NCBI GenBank assembly: GCA_024278345.1
Contig: JAJRTK010000464.1
Coordinates: 1 to 10,894 of the forward strand
Reading direction: 5' to 3'
Length of the DNA: 10,894 bases
From: a bacterium
GTDB lineage: Bacteria; CSSED10-310; JAJRTK01
Position 1 is the first letter of the stretch. The number at the start of each line of letters is the position of its first letter. Under the pieces are notes generated by a model. The model worked only from the letters and a program-made list of their open reading frames with translations. It was not told where the DNA came from and made no database searches. The translations under genes were made by a program, and so were the position numbers. Shown here piece after piece: positions 3,336 to 10,288 of the stretch.

Positions 3336-3962
3336 ATGCGAAGAGTTCTGCTGGTGGACGATGAAGAGTTCCTCTTGAAGAGCCTGGTGGAGATGTTGAA
3401 GAGGAGCGGAAAGTTGGCCGGGGTGGAGTTCGTCACGGCGCAGAACGGTCGGGAGGCGCTGGCGATCCTGGATGCGGGAGGCGCCGATCTGGTGGTGACC
3501 GATCTGAAAATGCCGGAAATGGATGGGATGGAGCTTCTGCAAGAGATGGGGGAGAGCCATGGGGATTTGCCGGTCATCGTGATTTCGGCCTATGGCTCGG
3601 AGGACGTGGAAGTAGAGGTGAAGCGGCGAGGCGCGGTGCGGTATCTGGACAAGCCCCTGGATACCGGGGAGCTGGCGCGGCAGATCGAGGGTTGCCTGGA
3701 AGCGTCGGCTCAGGGGTTCATCAACGGGATCCCGTTGGCGGATTTTATGCAGACGGTGCAACTGGGCCGTAAGAGCTGTTCGCTGGAAGTGCTCTCCGCG
3801 CGGGGAACGGGATGGCTTTATTTTTGGGAAGGCGAGCTGGTGGACGCTGGCATGGAAGGTGCAGCGGATAGTCGGGAAGCGGCGTTGGAGATTGCCGGGT
3901 GGGAGGATGTGTCGATCCGGATTGCGGGGAATTTCGGCGCCGGGAAAACCTGGTTTCGCTGA
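3336..3962 (+). CDS. receiver-DUF4388 response regulator, truncated by frameshift
   Basis: A 208-residue product. Residues 1-120 form a CheY-like receiver with D8-D9, phospho-acceptor D56, S84 and K106 all in place. Residues 128-200 form a DUF4388 (PATAN) domain: GIPLADFMQTVQLGRKSC, WLYFWEGELVDA and REAALEIAGW. In characterised PATAN-REC proteins this arrangement serves as a protein-interaction output (for example type IV pilus control). The start is supported by AGAGGGAG at 3323-3330. The first 200 residues align without gaps to the protein at 7538 (107/200 identical, counted by hand). After residue 200 this frame reads eight unrelated residues and stops, whereas the -1 frame from 3935 continues the homology (RRRENLVSLNLPALLMDVMV). 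The final DUF4388 helix and the Roadblock linker are therefore lost from this product. Confidence 0.88.
   Translation: MRRVLLVDDEEFLLKSLVEMLKRSGKLAGVEFVTAQNGREALAILDAGGADLVVTDLKMPEMDGMELLQEMGESHGDLPVIVISAYGSEDVEVEVKRRGAVRYLDKPLDTGELARQIEGCLEASAQGFINGIPLADFMQTVQLGRKSCSLEVLSARGTGWLYFWEGELVDAGMEGAADSREAALEIAGWEDVSIRIAGNFGAGKTWFR
3930..3940 (+). other. inferred single-base deletion splitting an ancestral fusion gene
   Basis: In-frame codons here read AAT TTC GGC GCC GGG. Restoring one C after 3935 gives AAT TTC CGG CGC CGG GAA AAC, i.e. NFRRREN, identical to the paralogue at 7538. From there the reading frame stays open through the 3963-4282 linker and joins the Roadblock gene in frame, giving a 436-residue fusion against 415 in the paralogue. 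The site lacks a canonical X XXY YYZ slippery heptamer, so programmed frameshifting is less likely than a mutation or a sequencing error. Confidence 0.7.
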
Positions 3963-4282
3963 ACCTTCCGGCGCTCTTGATGGATGTGATGGTCCGGAAG
4001 GATCGGCGGAGGCGCGGGGTGGAGCCCGGGGCGGTCGATGATGGGCGGAGTGCTCGGGGGGAAAGAGTGTGCGGTGGAGCAGAAGACTTGGATGGATCCC
4101 CGGTTTTCTTGCCGGGAAACGCATGTCATGTAGGACTTGGCGGGGCAATTTGTGGTATGGGAGAGACGCCTGGCGGGGATCAGGCGCTCGAGTTCGCTCC
4201 GGAGGGTGATTCCGGTTCGAGGTTTTCGGCAAGCCGGAGCGGGATGATGGTTCGCGGAGACAATGGAAAGGAGAAAGCGAGT

Positions 4283-4645
4283 ATGGCGACGCAGAGACAG
4301 ATCGACGCGATCTTGACGAAGTTGGACGGGATCGATGGTAGCTACGGCGGGCTTCTGGTGGACCGTAGCGGCATGGTCATCGCTTCGCGGTTGGACAAGC
4401 GTTACGCGGGAGACAAGATCGCGGCGCTGACCAGCGCGGCGATCAATACGGCCTCCCGGGTCGTGAAAGAGGCGGATTTCGGGACTCCGGAGACAATGCT
4501 CATCGAAGGCTCCGACGGGAAGATGGCCCTCATTCACGCGGCGAAGGGTGGTTTCTTCATTTCGCTGGTGGGCTCGAAAGGTCTGAATATCGGCATGGCC
4601 CGCATGGCCTTGCACGAAGCCATGGACACCTTCGACGATATTTGA
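4283..4645 (+). CDS. Roadblock/LC7 (MglB-like) domain protein
   Basis: A 120-residue single-domain protein of the Roadblock/LC7 family. Family members dimerise and act as GTPase-activating or scaffold partners of small Ras-like GTPases (MglB with MglA is the bacterial model). Recognisable features are GGLLVDRSGMVIAS, the following helix DKIAALTSAAINTASR, the strand pair MLIEGSDGKMALI and GGFFISLVG. A strong ribosome binding site (AAAGGAG at 4267-4273, 9-nt spacing) supports independent translation from the ATG at 4283. The frame is open upstream to about 3935, so it was probably once the C-terminal domain of the preceding receiver-DUF4388 gene. It is 96/120 identical to residues 296-415 of the protein at 7538. 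No GTPase gene is in the window. Confidence 0.9.
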   Translation: MATQRQIDAILTKLDGIDGSYGGLLVDRSGMVIASRLDKRYAGDKIAALTSAAINTASRVVKEADFGTPETMLIEGSDGKMALIHAAKGGFFISLVGSKGLNIGMARMALHEAMDTFDDI

Positions 4646-4843: not shown

Positions 4844-7252
4844 GTGTCTTGCATGCACGGCATGCTCCCAGTGCGGATCGAGACCCATCTGAATTCGGTG
4901 AAGCGGTCGGGGGAATGCCGGGTTGATGACGGGCGATTCATCCGGGAAGTTCCATTGCGACATTTTGTTCTCACCGGCTCCAAGACGACGGCCCCTGGGC
5001 ATGGCTTGAGGGAATTCATCCACACGTCCAACGTGGCGATCCAGGTGGATCAGAGCGTCGGACGGGCCATCGTCCAGATGCGGCGGGCGGCTCTTGTCAC
5101 GCTGATTGTCCTTGACGGGGATTCCCTCCGCGGGATGGTCACGCATCGCGAGCTTCTGAAGACACACTCGAACAGGCTGTTGTTGGACTGCCCGCTACAG
5201 CCGATCCCCACCGTGCTGCTCCCGAATCTCACGCCCATCGCGGCGTGGAATCGTTTGAAGGAGACGCAGGCCCAAGCGGCTCCGGTGGTGGAAGATTCGG
5301 GTTCCCTGTTGGGGCTGATCCTGGAAGATGACTTGCTGCGGTATCTCCTCTCTCCGTGGGAGCGAGTCCAAACGCCCAGGGACAAGCGGCGCCCCATGGT
5401 CGCCATGGCGGGGAATCGAACCGAAGAGACGCAACTTCTTAGCGGCGTCCTGCATGAAACGGGCTGCGAATGTTTGTTCCTGGAGAGCCAGGAAAGCCTC
5501 GAAGCGTTCTGGACGGGGGGAACGGCCGACCTTCTCATCCTGTGCTCCAAGCTGGGGGAGCGGGGCGTTCCGGCGATTCTGCGGGAATTGGACAGCACCA
5601 AGGCACGGCCTTTCCGGGTGTTCCTGGTCTTGGAATCCAAGGAATTGGACTTCTACGACGACCTGCTCGCCGCCTCTGCCCTGGATTTCCTTTTGAAGCC
5701 CCTGGATCCCACGGACGTGAGGAGGAAGATCCGGGGCACGCTGCGTTCCATCCGGTTCGACCGGCGAGTTCCTCGGCTCCGGGCCGATTTTCATCTCCTG
5801 GTTCGAGCCGTGGAGAACTCGCCCACGGGCATTACCATCAGTGATCCTGACGGTGTCGTCCTCTACTCGAATCCGGCGGAAGCCAGGATGCACCGGTATG
5901 ACCGAGACGAACTCATCGGCAAGGATGTGGGAGTTTTCGCGCCTCCGGGGACCCGGAAACAACTGGCTGCAGAGGAACTGCGGACCATGAGCACGGCCAG
6001 CCGGGAGACTTGGAACCACCGAAAGGATGGAACATTGCTCCCCGTTCGGCTTCGGTATGCTCCGGTGACGGACGAATGGGGCAACCTTCTTGGCAAGGTC
6101 TCCATCTGCGAGGACATCACGGAAGAACGTGAGATCCGGGCGGAACTCGACCAGGCCCACGCCAGGAACCAGATGATCCTGGAAACGACCACCGAAGGGA
6201 TCCTGCTGGTGAACGGGGAAAAGAAGATCGTGACGGCAAACCGGGCCTTCCTGGAGCTGGTGGCGAAACCCAAAGACGAAGTGGTGGGGCGATCATGCCA
6301 AGAGGTAATCGGGTCGGAGGTGTGCCTCGGCTGCCCCGAAACAGGATTCCCTTGTCGGCGGCCGAGAACGAATCGAGAGTTCGTGATCCACCGGTCGGAC
6401 GGCACCCGGCTCCTCTGTCTTTTCAACACCGGTCTCTACATGGATCCCGACGACAAGCGCGCCCGGATCGTCCATTCTTTTCGGGACATCACCGAGCTTC
6501 GGCGACTCGAGTCCATGGCGGCAACGAGCAATTTGATGAACAACCTGGGATTCATCTTTTCGGGAATCCGCCACGAAATCGGGAATCCGCTGAACACGAT
6601 TCTCACGACGGCGCGGCTCATTCTCGATAACGTGGAGAACCTGGAGGCCGACAAGATCCGGAAATATGCCGGTTGGATCCTGAGCGAGTCGAAGCGGGTG
6701 GACTACCTTTTGAAGTCCTTGAAAAATTTCACCCTTTTCGACACTATCCAAATGCGGCCCATGGACCTGGTGGATTTCCTCGGGAATTTCGTGGCCTTGA
6801 TTCGCCGGGACTGTCAGAAAGAGAACATCGCTGTCGTCTGGTCCAGGCATCCGCCGAAGGCATGGGTTCTAGCCGATCACCAGGCACTGCACCACGCGCT
6901 CTTGAACCTTGTGAGCAACTCGGTGCATGCGCTGAAGGGCCGACCAAACCCGAAGATCGAATTCTCGCTTCGCCAAGGCAAGGAAAAGTTCCTGGAAATC
7001 ATTCTCGAAGACAATGGCCGGGGAATTGCCAGGAAGCGGCAAGCTCAACTTATTACCCCCTTCGTTTCCGACAAGAGGGGAGGAACGGGGCTCGGACTAG
7101 TCATCGTGCGGAAAATCTTGTCCAAGATGGGCTGGGAGATCAAAATTGTCAGTCAAGATGGAGAGGGTACCAGGGTTGTCATGACCTTGGAAGAGGCGGC
7201 GCCTTTGGAGAAGATGGAGAAAAACGAAACCTGTCCGGATACAGAATGTTAA
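4844..7252 (+). CDS. soluble CBS-pseudoreceiver-PAS-PAS histidine kinase
   Basis: An 802-residue cytoplasmic sensor kinase with no membrane segment. Domains in order: CBS pair (about 58-170; LRGMVTHRELL and LLGLILEDDLL are typical CBS ends), a receiver-like fold (about 183-303), PAS1 (about 318-428), PAS2 (about 443-555), dimerisation/phospho-acceptor domain with H577 in IRHEIGNPLN, and HATPase with the N-box around N692, DNGRGI (723-728) and GGTGLGL (746-752). The receiver-like part has lost the acidic pocket (AMAGN) and carries C234 where the phospho-Asp belongs, while keeping K285, so it should not be phosphorylated. PAS2 has C485, C494, C497 and C504, a possible metal or redox site. The GTG start at 4844 follows a promoter; ATGs at 4853 and 4862 are alternatives and no strong ribosome binding site decides. 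It sits between two receiver-DUF4388 modules, its likely phosphotransfer partners (inference). Confidence 0.93.
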   Translation: MSCMHGMLPVRIETHLNSVKRSGECRVDDGRFIREVPLRHFVLTGSKTTAPGHGLREFIHTSNVAIQVDQSVGRAIVQMRRAALVTLIVLDGDSLRGMVTHRELLKTHSNRLLLDCPLQPIPTVLLPNLTPIAAWNRLKETQAQAAPVVEDSGSLLGLILEDDLLRYLLSPWERVQTPRDKRRPMVAMAGNRTEETQLLSGVLHETGCECLFLESQESLEAFWTGGTADLLILCSKLGERGVPAILRELDSTKARPFRVFLVLESKELDFYDDLLAASALDFLLKPLDPTDVRRKIRGTLRSIRFDRRVPRLRADFHLLVRAVENSPTGITISDPDGVVLYSNPAEARMHRYDRDELIGKDVGVFAPPGTRKQLAAEELRTMSTASRETWNHRKDGTLLPVRLRYAPVTDEWGNLLGKVSICEDITEEREIRAELDQAHARNQMILETTTEGILLVNGEKKIVTANRAFLELVAKPKDEVVGRSCQEVIGSEVCLGCPETGFPCRRPRTNREFVIHRSDGTRLLCLFNTGLYMDPDDKRARIVHSFRDITELRRLESMAATSNLMNNLGFIFSGIRHEIGNPLNTILTTARLILDNVENLEADKIRKYAGWILSESKRVDYLLKSLKNFTLFDTIQMRPMDLVDFLGNFVALIRRDCQKENIAVVWSRHPPKAWVLADHQALHHALLNLVSNSVHALKGRPNPKIEFSLRQGKEKFLEIILEDNGRGIARKRQAQLITPFVSDKRGGTGLGLVIVRKILSKMGWEIKIVSQDGEGTRVVMTLEEAAPLEKMEKNETCPDTEC

Positions 7253-7537: not shown

Positions 7538-8785
7538 ATGCACAAAATACTTCTCGTAGACGACGAAAAAGTCTTTCTCGAAAGTCTCGTGGCCACCTTC
7601 CGGCGGATTGAGGCGCTGAAAAACCACGAATATTTGACCGCCTTCAATGGGCTGGAAGCCCTGGAGATCCTCACGACCCGGAAAATCGATCTCCTGATTA
7701 CGGACCTCAAGATGCCGGGAATGGATGGTTTTGCTCTTCTCGAGCAGATGGGCCGCGCGTATGACGATCTTCCGGTCATCGTCATGACGGCGTTCGGGTC
7801 CGACGCCATTGAAAAGAAAGTCACCAGGTCCGGGGCCATGCGCTACATCGACAAGCCCATCGACATCGAGAAACTCACCAGCGAAATCCTCCAGGCTCTC
7901 GCCGCCACTGCTGAAGGCGTGATTTCCGGACTCCAGTTGCCGGATTTCATGCAAACGGTGTACATGGGGCGCAAGAGTTGCACGCTGGAGATCCGATCCG
8001 ATAACCGATTCGGGCGTCTCTATTTCTGGAACGGTGAAATCGTCGATGCGGAGTGGGGTGATCGGCTCTCCGGTCGCGAGGCTGCGTTGGAAATCGCCGC
8101 CTGGTCGGACCCGGAAATCCGGATCACCGGCAACTTCCGCAGGCGGGAGAACCGGGTGGGAATCCCGGTTACGGCCCTCGTCATGGAAGCCATGGTCCAG
8201 AAGGACGAGAGGGAGGTCGCCGAGGGTCCGGAACCAACTCAAAAAACCGTTGTTCCAACGAAATCGAATTACGTTTCCCGGCGAGCGGACGTCAAGGAAG
8301 ACGCTGGTTTTCAAACTCTCTCCGGCAGCGCCTCCAACAAGGAGGCGGCGCCGAATTCGTTAGACATACTGAATCTATCTCCGGCAACGGTAGATTCAAT
8401 TCTTGACAAGGAGGAAGCTAAGATGGCAACCCAGAGACAGATCGACGCTCTTTTGGCGCAGTTGGATGGTATCGATGGAGCCCATGGTGGGCTGATGGTG
8501 GACCGGGACGGGATGGTCATCGCTTCCAAGCTCGACAAGCGCTATGCGGGAGACAAGATCGCCGCCCTGACCAGCGCCGCGATCAAGACCGCGAGCCGGG
8601 TCGTGGTGGATGCGGGCTTCGGCAAACCGGAAAGCATGCTCATCGAGGGAAGCGACGGCAAGATGTGCCTCATCAACGCCGCGCAGGGCGGGTTCTTCAT
8701 CTCGCTCATCGGATCCAAGGATTTGAACATCGGCATGGCTCGCATGGCGCTGCACGAAGTGATCGAGACTTTCGACAACCTGTGA
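7538..8785 (+). CDS. receiver-DUF4388-Roadblock fusion response regulator
   Basis: A 415-residue protein. The receiver (1-120) has D8-D9, D56, T84 and K106. The DUF4388 domain (about 128-230) includes LPDFMQTVYMGRKSC, RLYFWNGEIVDA and a closing helix TALVMEAMVQKDE. A polar linker (about 231-295) is rich in E, P, T and S. The Roadblock/LC7 domain is at 296-415. The phosphorylated receiver probably controls what DUF4388 and Roadblock bind, plausibly a Ras-like GTPase complex. ATG 7538 is chosen because it matches the paralogue start at 3336; GTG 7529 would add three residues. Inside the gene, AAGGAGG (8408-8414) lies 8 nt before an in-frame ATG (8423), so a separate 120-residue Roadblock protein is probably made as well. 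It is the intact counterpart of the split pair at 3336-4645. Confidence 0.92.
   Translation: MHKILLVDDEKVFLESLVATFRRIEALKNHEYLTAFNGLEALEILTTRKIDLLITDLKMPGMDGFALLEQMGRAYDDLPVIVMTAFGSDAIEKKVTRSGAMRYIDKPIDIEKLTSEILQALAATAEGVISGLQLPDFMQTVYMGRKSCTLEIRSDNRFGRLYFWNGEIVDAEWGDRLSGREAALEIAAWSDPEIRITGNFRRRENRVGIPVTALVMEAMVQKDEREVAEGPEPTQKTVVPTKSNYVSRRADVKEDAGFQTLSGSASNKEAAPNSLDILNLSPATVDSILDKEEAKMATQRQIDALLAQLDGIDGAHGGLMVDRDGMVIASKLDKRYAGDKIAALTSAAIKTASRVVVDAGFGKPESMLIEGSDGKMCLINAAQGGFFISLIGSKDLNIGMARMALHEVIETFDNL
8408..8425 (+). promoter_or_regulatory. internal ribosome binding site and start for stand-alone Roadblock domain
   Basis: A full-consensus Shine-Dalgarno AAGGAGG (8408-8414) is followed after 8 nt by ATG (8423-8425), in frame with the fusion gene and exactly at the Roadblock domain border (MATQRQIDA). 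The split copy at 4283 begins with the same seven residues and also has a good ribosome binding site at 4267-4273. The site strength exceeds that of the fusion's own start at 7538. Confidence 0.65.
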
Positions 8786-8941: not shown

Positions 8942-10288
8942 ATGCAGATCCATTTGCGGTCGATCCCGACCGGGCCCGGAGATCCGAATCCGTTTGGCCC
9001 AAATTTCGTGGAATTTCCCTGGGCGGCGCAATTCCGGTCGATCCGGAACGGGGCGCCGCGGAAGCTTCTTGGCGTGGAGCTGGAAGGCGAGCTCGTGGGA
9101 GGAATGACCATCGACCCGACATGCCGGCCGCAACAGCTCATCTTCTTCGAAGTTCTTAAGGGGTATCGAGGCCGCGGCATCGGCAAGACGGCGTTGCTCC
9201 AGCTCATCGCCGAGCTTCGCGTGCAAGGTGAGACCGAGCTTTTCGTCCAGACCGGCCGCACGGTGATCTATCGGCGCATGGGGTTCCACTTCCGGCCCGT
9301 GGAGCGCAGCGGTCTCATCATCGATCTGGACCGGCCACTGGCGGAGCGTTCCGTTCCCGATGGAGCCCCCCTGGTGATCGTTCACGACGATGTCTACCTG
9401 TGGCACGACGCATACGACTCGCCGGAATCTCCAGACCGCTTGGCACGCACCTTCAAGCACCTGGAAGAAACGCGGATCCTGGAGGAACTGACCATCGTCG
9501 CACCCCGGTACGCGGAGGTCGATGACATCGCCAAGGTCCATGACCCGGACTATATCCGACGGGTGAAACAGGTGTGCGAGGAAGGCGGCAGCCTGGCCTC
9601 GGACGTAAAGACCTGCCGCGAATCGTTCGACATTGCCCGCCTTGCTTACGGGGGAAGCCTGTTGGCGGGAGACTACGTCGAGGAATGGCGGCGCGTATTC
9701 GTCCTTTGCCGGCCCCCGGGGCACCATGCATCCCGAAGCCAAGGTGCGGGATTCTGTATCTTCAACAACATGGCGGGGCTGGCGCTGGCACTCCAGGCAT
9801 GGGGTTTCCGACCCCTCATCATCGACTGGGATGCCCACCACGGGAATGGCACCCAAGAACTCCTCTACGAAGAACCAATCCCCTATATATCGTTCCACCA
9901 ACGGGATCTCTACCCCTGGACAGGCACCCCCCAGGAACGGGGCAAGGGCGCCGGACTGGGCTTCAATTACAATTTCCCCCTCCCGCCGCTCTGCACCGAC
10001 GAACAGTTCATGACAGCCTTTCGTGAACTGCCGGAGATCGTGGACCGCCATCGACCGGACGTCCTCCTGGTTTCGGCGGGCCAAGACGGGCACCACGCGG
10101 ACAAGCTGAGCGGCATGATGCTGAGCAGCGAATGCTTCGAGGAAATGGCCCGCACGGCACGCAACCTGGCGAATCGCTACACTGATGGCCGGATCATCCT
10201 GCTCCTGGAAGGCGGTTACAACTTGGAGCATCTTGGCCATCTCAACACGCTCATCGCCAAGGAAATCGCCGGGCTGTCACCGCGTTGA
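8942..10288 (+). CDS. GNAT acetyltransferase fused to histone-deacetylase-family hydrolase
   Basis: A 448-residue two-domain protein. Residues about 1-130 are GNAT-like: the acetyl-CoA pyrophosphate loop R76-G-R-G-I-G81 and motif B YRRMGF (110-115). Residues about 145-445 are an arginase-fold deacetylase of the HDAC/acetylpolyamine amidohydrolase/AcuC group: RPPGHHA (257-263), GFCIFNN, DWDAHHGNGT (zinc ligands D297 and H299), SAGQD with third zinc ligand D382, and catalytic tyrosine in GGYN (Y426). All expected catalytic residues are present. Q381 replaces the usual Phe of the SAGFD motif. The start is supported by AAGGA at 8929-8933, 8-nt spacing. One polypeptide thus could add and remove acetyl groups; AcuA/AcuC control of acetyl-CoA synthetase is a precedent for the pair as separate proteins. 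The substrate (protein lysine, polyamine or other) cannot be told. It follows a hairpin, so it may be a separate transcript. Confidence 0.9.
   Translation: MQIHLRSIPTGPGDPNPFGPNFVEFPWAAQFRSIRNGAPRKLLGVELEGELVGGMTIDPTCRPQQLIFFEVLKGYRGRGIGKTALLQLIAELRVQGETELFVQTGRTVIYRRMGFHFRPVERSGLIIDLDRPLAERSVPDGAPLVIVHDDVYLWHDAYDSPESPDRLARTFKHLEETRILEELTIVAPRYAEVDDIAKVHDPDYIRRVKQVCEEGGSLASDVKTCRESFDIARLAYGGSLLAGDYVEEWRRVFVLCRPPGHHASRSQGAGFCIFNNMAGLALALQAWGFRPLIIDWDAHHGNGTQELLYEEPIPYISFHQRDLYPWTGTPQERGKGAGLGFNYNFPLPPLCTDEQFMTAFRELPEIVDRHRPDVLLVSAGQDGHHADKLSGMMLSSECFEEMARTARNLANRYTDGRIILLLEGGYNLEHLGHLNTLIAKEIAGLSPR

Follow-up and report, generated by a model that had tools for sequence, protein, structure and literature searches.

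The window analyzed here, a stretch of 10,894 nt, carries two copies of a gene encoding a receiver domain, a DUF4388 domain and a Roadblock domain, and in both copies the Roadblock part is preceded by a Shine-Dalgarno sequence and an ATG. The reading that we favor, with moderate confidence, is that both copies descend from a two-product gene, which would encode a long regulator and a free Roadblock chain, and that a frame break in copy 1 separates the two products. Judging from the sequences, copy 2 and those relatives that have this signal inside one continuous gene probably make both the long regulator and the free tail piece. The window is the entire small contig C405 of a MAG of 550 contigs and 6.06 Mb; a scan of genome contigs for the same species elsewhere returned essentially receiver-domain matches.

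Frame break in copy 1

The two copies contain the following features.

3336–3962, + strand: copy 1 5′ half, receiver and DUF4388 domains (PF00072, E 9.5e-26; PF14332, E 6.4e-10, positions 1–46 of 122)
3932–3936, + strand: frame break, one base fewer than in the paralogue and the family (continuity of the DUF4388 profile across frames; gene HMM)
3935–4009, + strand: C-terminal end of DUF4388 in the −1 frame (14 of 25 residues identical to the paralogue; GC by codon position.72/.36/.80, coding-like)
4010–4282, + strand: copy 1 linker, open in the −1 frame (composition; open-frame shuffles)
4268–4273, + strand: copy 1 Shine-Dalgarno AAGGAG for the Roadblock part, nine bases before ATG4283
4283–4645, + strand: copy 1 Roadblock, type A, with its own start (Pfam Robl_LC7, E 1.3e-8; 80% identical to copy 2)
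7538–8785, + strand: copy 2, intact receiver-DUF4388-linker-Roadblock, 415 aa (three Pfam domains in a single ORF)

The ORF at 3336–3962 encodes 208 aa, and its stop codon lies 25 nt past the frame break. It aligned with copy 2 (7538–8785) without gaps over 200 residues at 53.5% identity, after which the frame was lost; the identity between the copies was 51% in the receiver and 57% in DUF4388. With a DUF4388 profile built from the relatives, model positions 3–80 matched frame 0 and positions 80–109 matched the −1 frame, and the break was placed at approximately 3932–3936 because the profile switches frames there. A gene HMM that relies on composition only, and for which the paralogue was not used, also called a frameshift, at 3943. 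Between 3872 and 4645 the −1 frame stays open, with 237 codons (stop included) beyond the break, and 14 of its first 25 codons after the break are identical to the paralogue. The coding composition of the linker (4010–4282) was weak (GC by codon position.69/.59/.57 vs.55/.44/.79 in the Roadblock part), and approximately 11% of shuffled linkers remained open by chance. The preliminary description had proposed an ancestral receiver-DUF4388-Roadblock gene that aligns gap-free with its paralogue for 200 residues, is broken by one base and then stays open into the Roadblock domain. Each of these points held, and copy 2 is intact with the same three domains.

Both copies showed PF00072 followed by PF14332 in Pfam, the domain order that defines a receiver-DUF4388 response regulator, and the phospho-acceptor set D8/D9, D56 and K106 is aligned in copies 1 and 2. 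The C-terminal part of DUF4388 has a conserved segment (LL.EA...KDE), which is missing from the truncated product of copy 1. Read as deposited, copy 1 can give only a receiver protein with a truncated DUF4388 and a free Roadblock chain. The preliminary description implied that the Roadblock half is still expressible, which agrees well with its intact Shine-Dalgarno and start codon. The same description also suggested that copy 1 may yield an adaptor that can be phosphorylated but is no longer coupled to its Roadblock partner. We find this doubtful: the C-terminal segment of DUF4388 is gone, none of the relatives shows such a split and the break may be an assembly error. The one-base split was seen in copy 1 only; neither its paralogue nor any other fusion in the comparison was broken. 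A recent mutation and an assembly error are about equally likely as the origin of the break, which is not a conserved split.

Putative internal start site in copy 2 and in related genes

Copy 2 contains two further features.

8408–8414, + strand: copy 2 internal Shine-Dalgarno AAGGAGG (AAGGAGG-8-ATG8423, in frame)
8423–8785, + strand: putative second product of copy 2, a free Roadblock of 120 aa (internal Shine-Dalgarno and ATG)

The internal signal of copy 2 (AAGGAGG-8-ATG8423) lies at the same place as that of copy 1 (AAGGAG-9-ATG4283) and is the stronger of the two. Copy 2 has this internal start within a continuous ORF; therefore, the Roadblock start is older than the split of copy 1. Thus the Roadblock half of copy 1 does have its own ribosome binding site, AAGGAG nine bases before ATG4283, as had been described, but this site is not a product of the split.

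The search for relatives covered 386 genomes around the genome of the window, 199 from the phylum that contains G089, and the small phylum to which G037 belongs. It recovered receiver-DUF4388 ORFs that end in a Roadblock domain, and these Roadblocks fall into four sequence types.

Type A Roadblock: window (Pfam Roadblock)
Type B Roadblock: G001, G037, G582 and G051 (AlphaFold and Foldseek)
Type C Roadblock: G089, G506, G548, G479, G434 and G446 (AlphaFold and Foldseek)
Type D Roadblock: G489, G557, G541, G518 and G445 (Pfam match below threshold only)

The tails of types B and C were not recognized by Pfam. Their AlphaFold models had a mean pLDDT of 93 and 86, respectively, and Foldseek matched them to Roadblock structures, with MglB among the best. 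Because the Roadblock types differ between lineages, the fusion occurred several times.

An in-frame internal start was present in copy 2 and in 11 further continuous fusions, covering all four Roadblock types and at least seven other lineages, as judged from the labels "family," "genus," "same phylum" and "same domain." For types A, B and C, which have known free homologues, the first Met of the Roadblock part was aligned to the initiator Met of these homologues. Where the Roadblock part kept a Met at the initiator position, 12 of 12 continuous fusions had a Shine-Dalgarno match of 5–8 bases at a distance of 3–9 bases, against a background, among other in-frame start codons of the same ORFs, of 16 of 324 with a match of at least five bases and 1 of 324 with at least six; these twelve cases, three of one genus and three of one family, were gathered after the pattern had been spotted in the window and the first relatives. 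Without selection on the Met, the internal start was found in 12 of 18 junctions (12 of 19 when G068 is counted) vs 0.7% of seven-residue windows, such an ATG occurring in 28 of 4190 of these windows elsewhere in the same ORFs. Among more distant DUF4388-Roadblock fusions, the internal start was mostly absent.

The Shine-Dalgarno, its spacing and the ATG stayed fixed while the linkers diverged to approximately 40% identity. G506 and G479, with linkers 38% identical, have the same CACAGGAG-9-ATG, and G489 and G541, with linkers 41% identical and differing by indels, have the same AACAAGGAG-6-ATG. The linkers of G489 and G557 differ by two codons and keep the frame; therefore, selection appears to act on the long product as well. 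The peptide that overlies the signal varies by lineage, and in G001 the signal is read in another codon register, giving KGG and not KE or QE. In a recoding test, the choice of codons over the signal, given the peptide, was not unusual for any gene alone (P 0.07–0.64), and a constraint on the peptide (KE or QE before the Met) could contribute to the signal. In a single species pair (the G489 and G557 genes, L219 and L220), dS was 0.23 in the Roadblock part and twice as high, 0.45, in the receiver-DUF4388 part, as would arise if the Roadblock part were translated twice and its synonymous sites were constrained.

Separate Roadblock genes

Ten fusions with an internal start had no other Roadblock of their own type that we could find in the genome (copy 1 of the window being set aside), whereas G001 and one G582 locus had both an internal start and an additional free Roadblock copy. 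Of the seven fusions that lack an internal start, six (two in G582 and those of G051, G434, G446 and G445) were accompanied by a separate gene for a same-type Roadblock, either adjacent or close by. The exception was G068: its fusion lacks an internal start, and no free Roadblock of the same type accompanies it. The internal start was thus associated with the absence of another same-type Roadblock gene (Fisher p 0.006 over genes and 0.04 with lineages collapsed, which is weaker than the p of 0.0015 obtained without G068). The distant fusions were mixed: G288 has an adjacent free Roadblock, and no Roadblock of types A–D was found in the short flanks retrieved around the genes of G351, G060, G081, G222 and G132.

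The preliminary description had set against its own reading the case in which relatives always have two separate genes and a stop-rich linker. This case was not found among the relatives compared. They carried either a fusion with an internal start or a fusion with an additional free Roadblock gene nearby, except for G068, whose fusion had neither.

Two loci deserve description here. In G001 (L116, 3998–5663), the fusion is preceded at a short distance by a free Roadblock gene, and this gene and the fused domain even have their leader in common (CCGCTCAAAGGAGG..CTATGAACCTC), as if one of the two had recently been copied or converted from the other. On contig C30 of G005 (L210), three type B Roadblock genes stand in tandem, and no receiver-DUF4388 gene was present on the stretch seen.

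Gene neighborhood

Three further genes of the window bear on the context of the two copies.

988–2511, + strand: NtrC-like sigma-54 activator with a receiver domain (Pfam; recurs beside the relatives' genes)
4844–7252, + strand: histidine kinase (CBS, PAS, HisKA, HATPase), the likely partner (Pfam; homologous core beside the relatives' genes)
8942–10288, + strand: fusion of a GNAT acetyltransferase and a histone-deacetylase-like domain (Pfam; also in G051)

The order in the window is the NtrC-like gene (988–2511), copy 1, the kinase (4844–7252) and copy 2. A kinase with a homologous core, an NtrC-like activator or both were found beside or near the fusion in G037, G089, G506, G489, G541, G518, G582, G001, G434 and G446. 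In G051, which is outside the phylum of the window, a GNAT-deacetylase fusion lies directly 3′ of a free type A Roadblock (L115, 3112–4449). This fusion follows a type A Roadblock both there and at copy 2, and the Roadblock of the window is therefore probably derived from such a pair. No small GTPase domain was detected among the window ORFs scanned with Pfam.

Elsewhere in the window, the gene HMM also called a frame change at 985, where an ORF at 341–1123 (no Pfam match) overlaps the NtrC-like ORF (988–2511), and the sequence at approximately 960–1080 resembles a GC-rich, repeat-like insertion at a gene boundary. Short repeats of the CACCGGCAAGATGCCGGTGCCACC type were present at both ends of the contig (1–100 and 10840–10894) and may explain where the contig ends.

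Alternative explanations

The split of copy 1 may be nothing but an assembly or consensus error, in which case the organism would carry copy 1 as an unbroken fusion that shares the internal start of copy 2. We put the chance of this at about one half. The MAG is fragmented into 550 contigs, of which the window is one complete small contig; the break adjoins a GC-rich palindrome (GGCGCC) and is accompanied by no second lesion; coding composition is kept on both sides of it; and no relative is split. However, apparent frameshifts were not clearly in excess in the MAG (13 in 253 kb, 5.1 per 100 kb) compared with two single-contig genomes (10 in 280 kb, 3.3–3.7), as counted by a coarse HMM method. 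Alternatively, the frameshift may be real and recent, so that the fused form of copy 1 has begun to decay and the free Roadblock is the only part of it that is still useful, and copy 2 supplies the long product. The intact paralogue at the same locus is consistent with this, as are the 80% identity of the Roadblock halves and the intact Shine-Dalgarno of copy 1; the 5′ half of copy 1, however, shows no sign of relaxed constraint, and we rate this possibility slightly below even. That ribosomes join the halves of copy 1 by programmed −1 frameshifting is highly improbable. The shift required is indeed −1 and the frames overlap by 88 nt, but no other member of the family requires a shift. The overlap (3872–3962) contains no X_XXY_YYZ slippery heptamer.

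A different objection concerns the internal signal itself, which might be an unused relic from a Roadblock gene that stood alone before its fusion. Free Roadblock genes that share the leader of a fused copy do exist, as in G001, and the variation of Roadblock type by lineage implies several fusion events. Against this, signal and spacing are unchanged within one genus (G506/G479) and within one family (G489/G541) although the linkers have fallen to approximately 40% identity and dS is above 1, and internal starts tend to occur where no further Roadblock gene of that type is present. We therefore regard a relic as unlikely.

Proposed model and comparison with known systems

In the two-product reading, the long product would be a response regulator composed of a receiver, a DUF4388 (PATAN-like) domain, a linker and a Roadblock domain. 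Initiation at the internal Shine-Dalgarno and ATG at the Roadblock start would give a free Roadblock chain of approximately 120 aa. Because Roadblock domains dimerize, the free chain would most likely pair with the Roadblock domain of the long chain, and it would thereby set the make-up of a complex that the adjacent kinase may control by phosphorylating the receiver.

More broadly, we see as much reason to accept as to doubt that these genes form an undescribed, widespread class: receiver-DUF4388-Roadblock regulators, usually beside a specific histidine kinase, an NtrC-like gene or both, that supply their own free Roadblock, with lineages that lose the internal start keeping or gaining a separate Roadblock gene and copy 1 being a snapshot of this change. 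No article on DUF4388-Roadblock fusions, or on an internal start in them, was found in the open-access literature. Two-product single-frame genes are thought to be commoner in bacteria than the catalogues show, and the majority have yet to be given a role. The comparative signal points to a response regulator family that carries its own subunit, for which Roadblock dimerization is a plausible reason. If this is true, phosphorylation signaling would be tied to Roadblock biology in several lineages, some of them represented by single- or few-contig genomes, and annotation of such loci as simple fusions or broken genes would hide a product.

In what follows, we take DUF4388 to be equivalent to PATAN. 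Receiver and PATAN-type domains are combined in the response regulators PixG, PixE and LsiR (PMC5812497), as in the genes described here, but neither a Roadblock domain nor an internal start has been described for those proteins. Roadblock proteins act on small GTPases as dimers or heteromers, and heteromeric complexes exist (PMC9481161). MglB shares the Roadblock fold; unlike the Roadblock parts here, it is encoded alone and acts on MglA, whereas the scanned genes of the window include no GTPase domain. The widespread RpnL/RpnS genes within genes likewise use an internal start to release a C-terminal domain (PMC10327210), but Rpn is a nuclease with its inhibitor and not a response regulator. 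In type III secretion, SctQ/Spa33 is made as a full-length protein and, via an internal start, as its C-terminal domain Spa33-C, and the two assemble (PMC8211105). Spa33 differs in its SPOA domain and its role in secretion, and Spa33-C has been demonstrated whereas the free Roadblock is predicted here; the likeness is that one gene gives a long and a C-terminal product. By analogy with Spa33 and with heteromeric Roadblock complexes, the long and short products of the receiver-DUF4388-Roadblock genes should pair.
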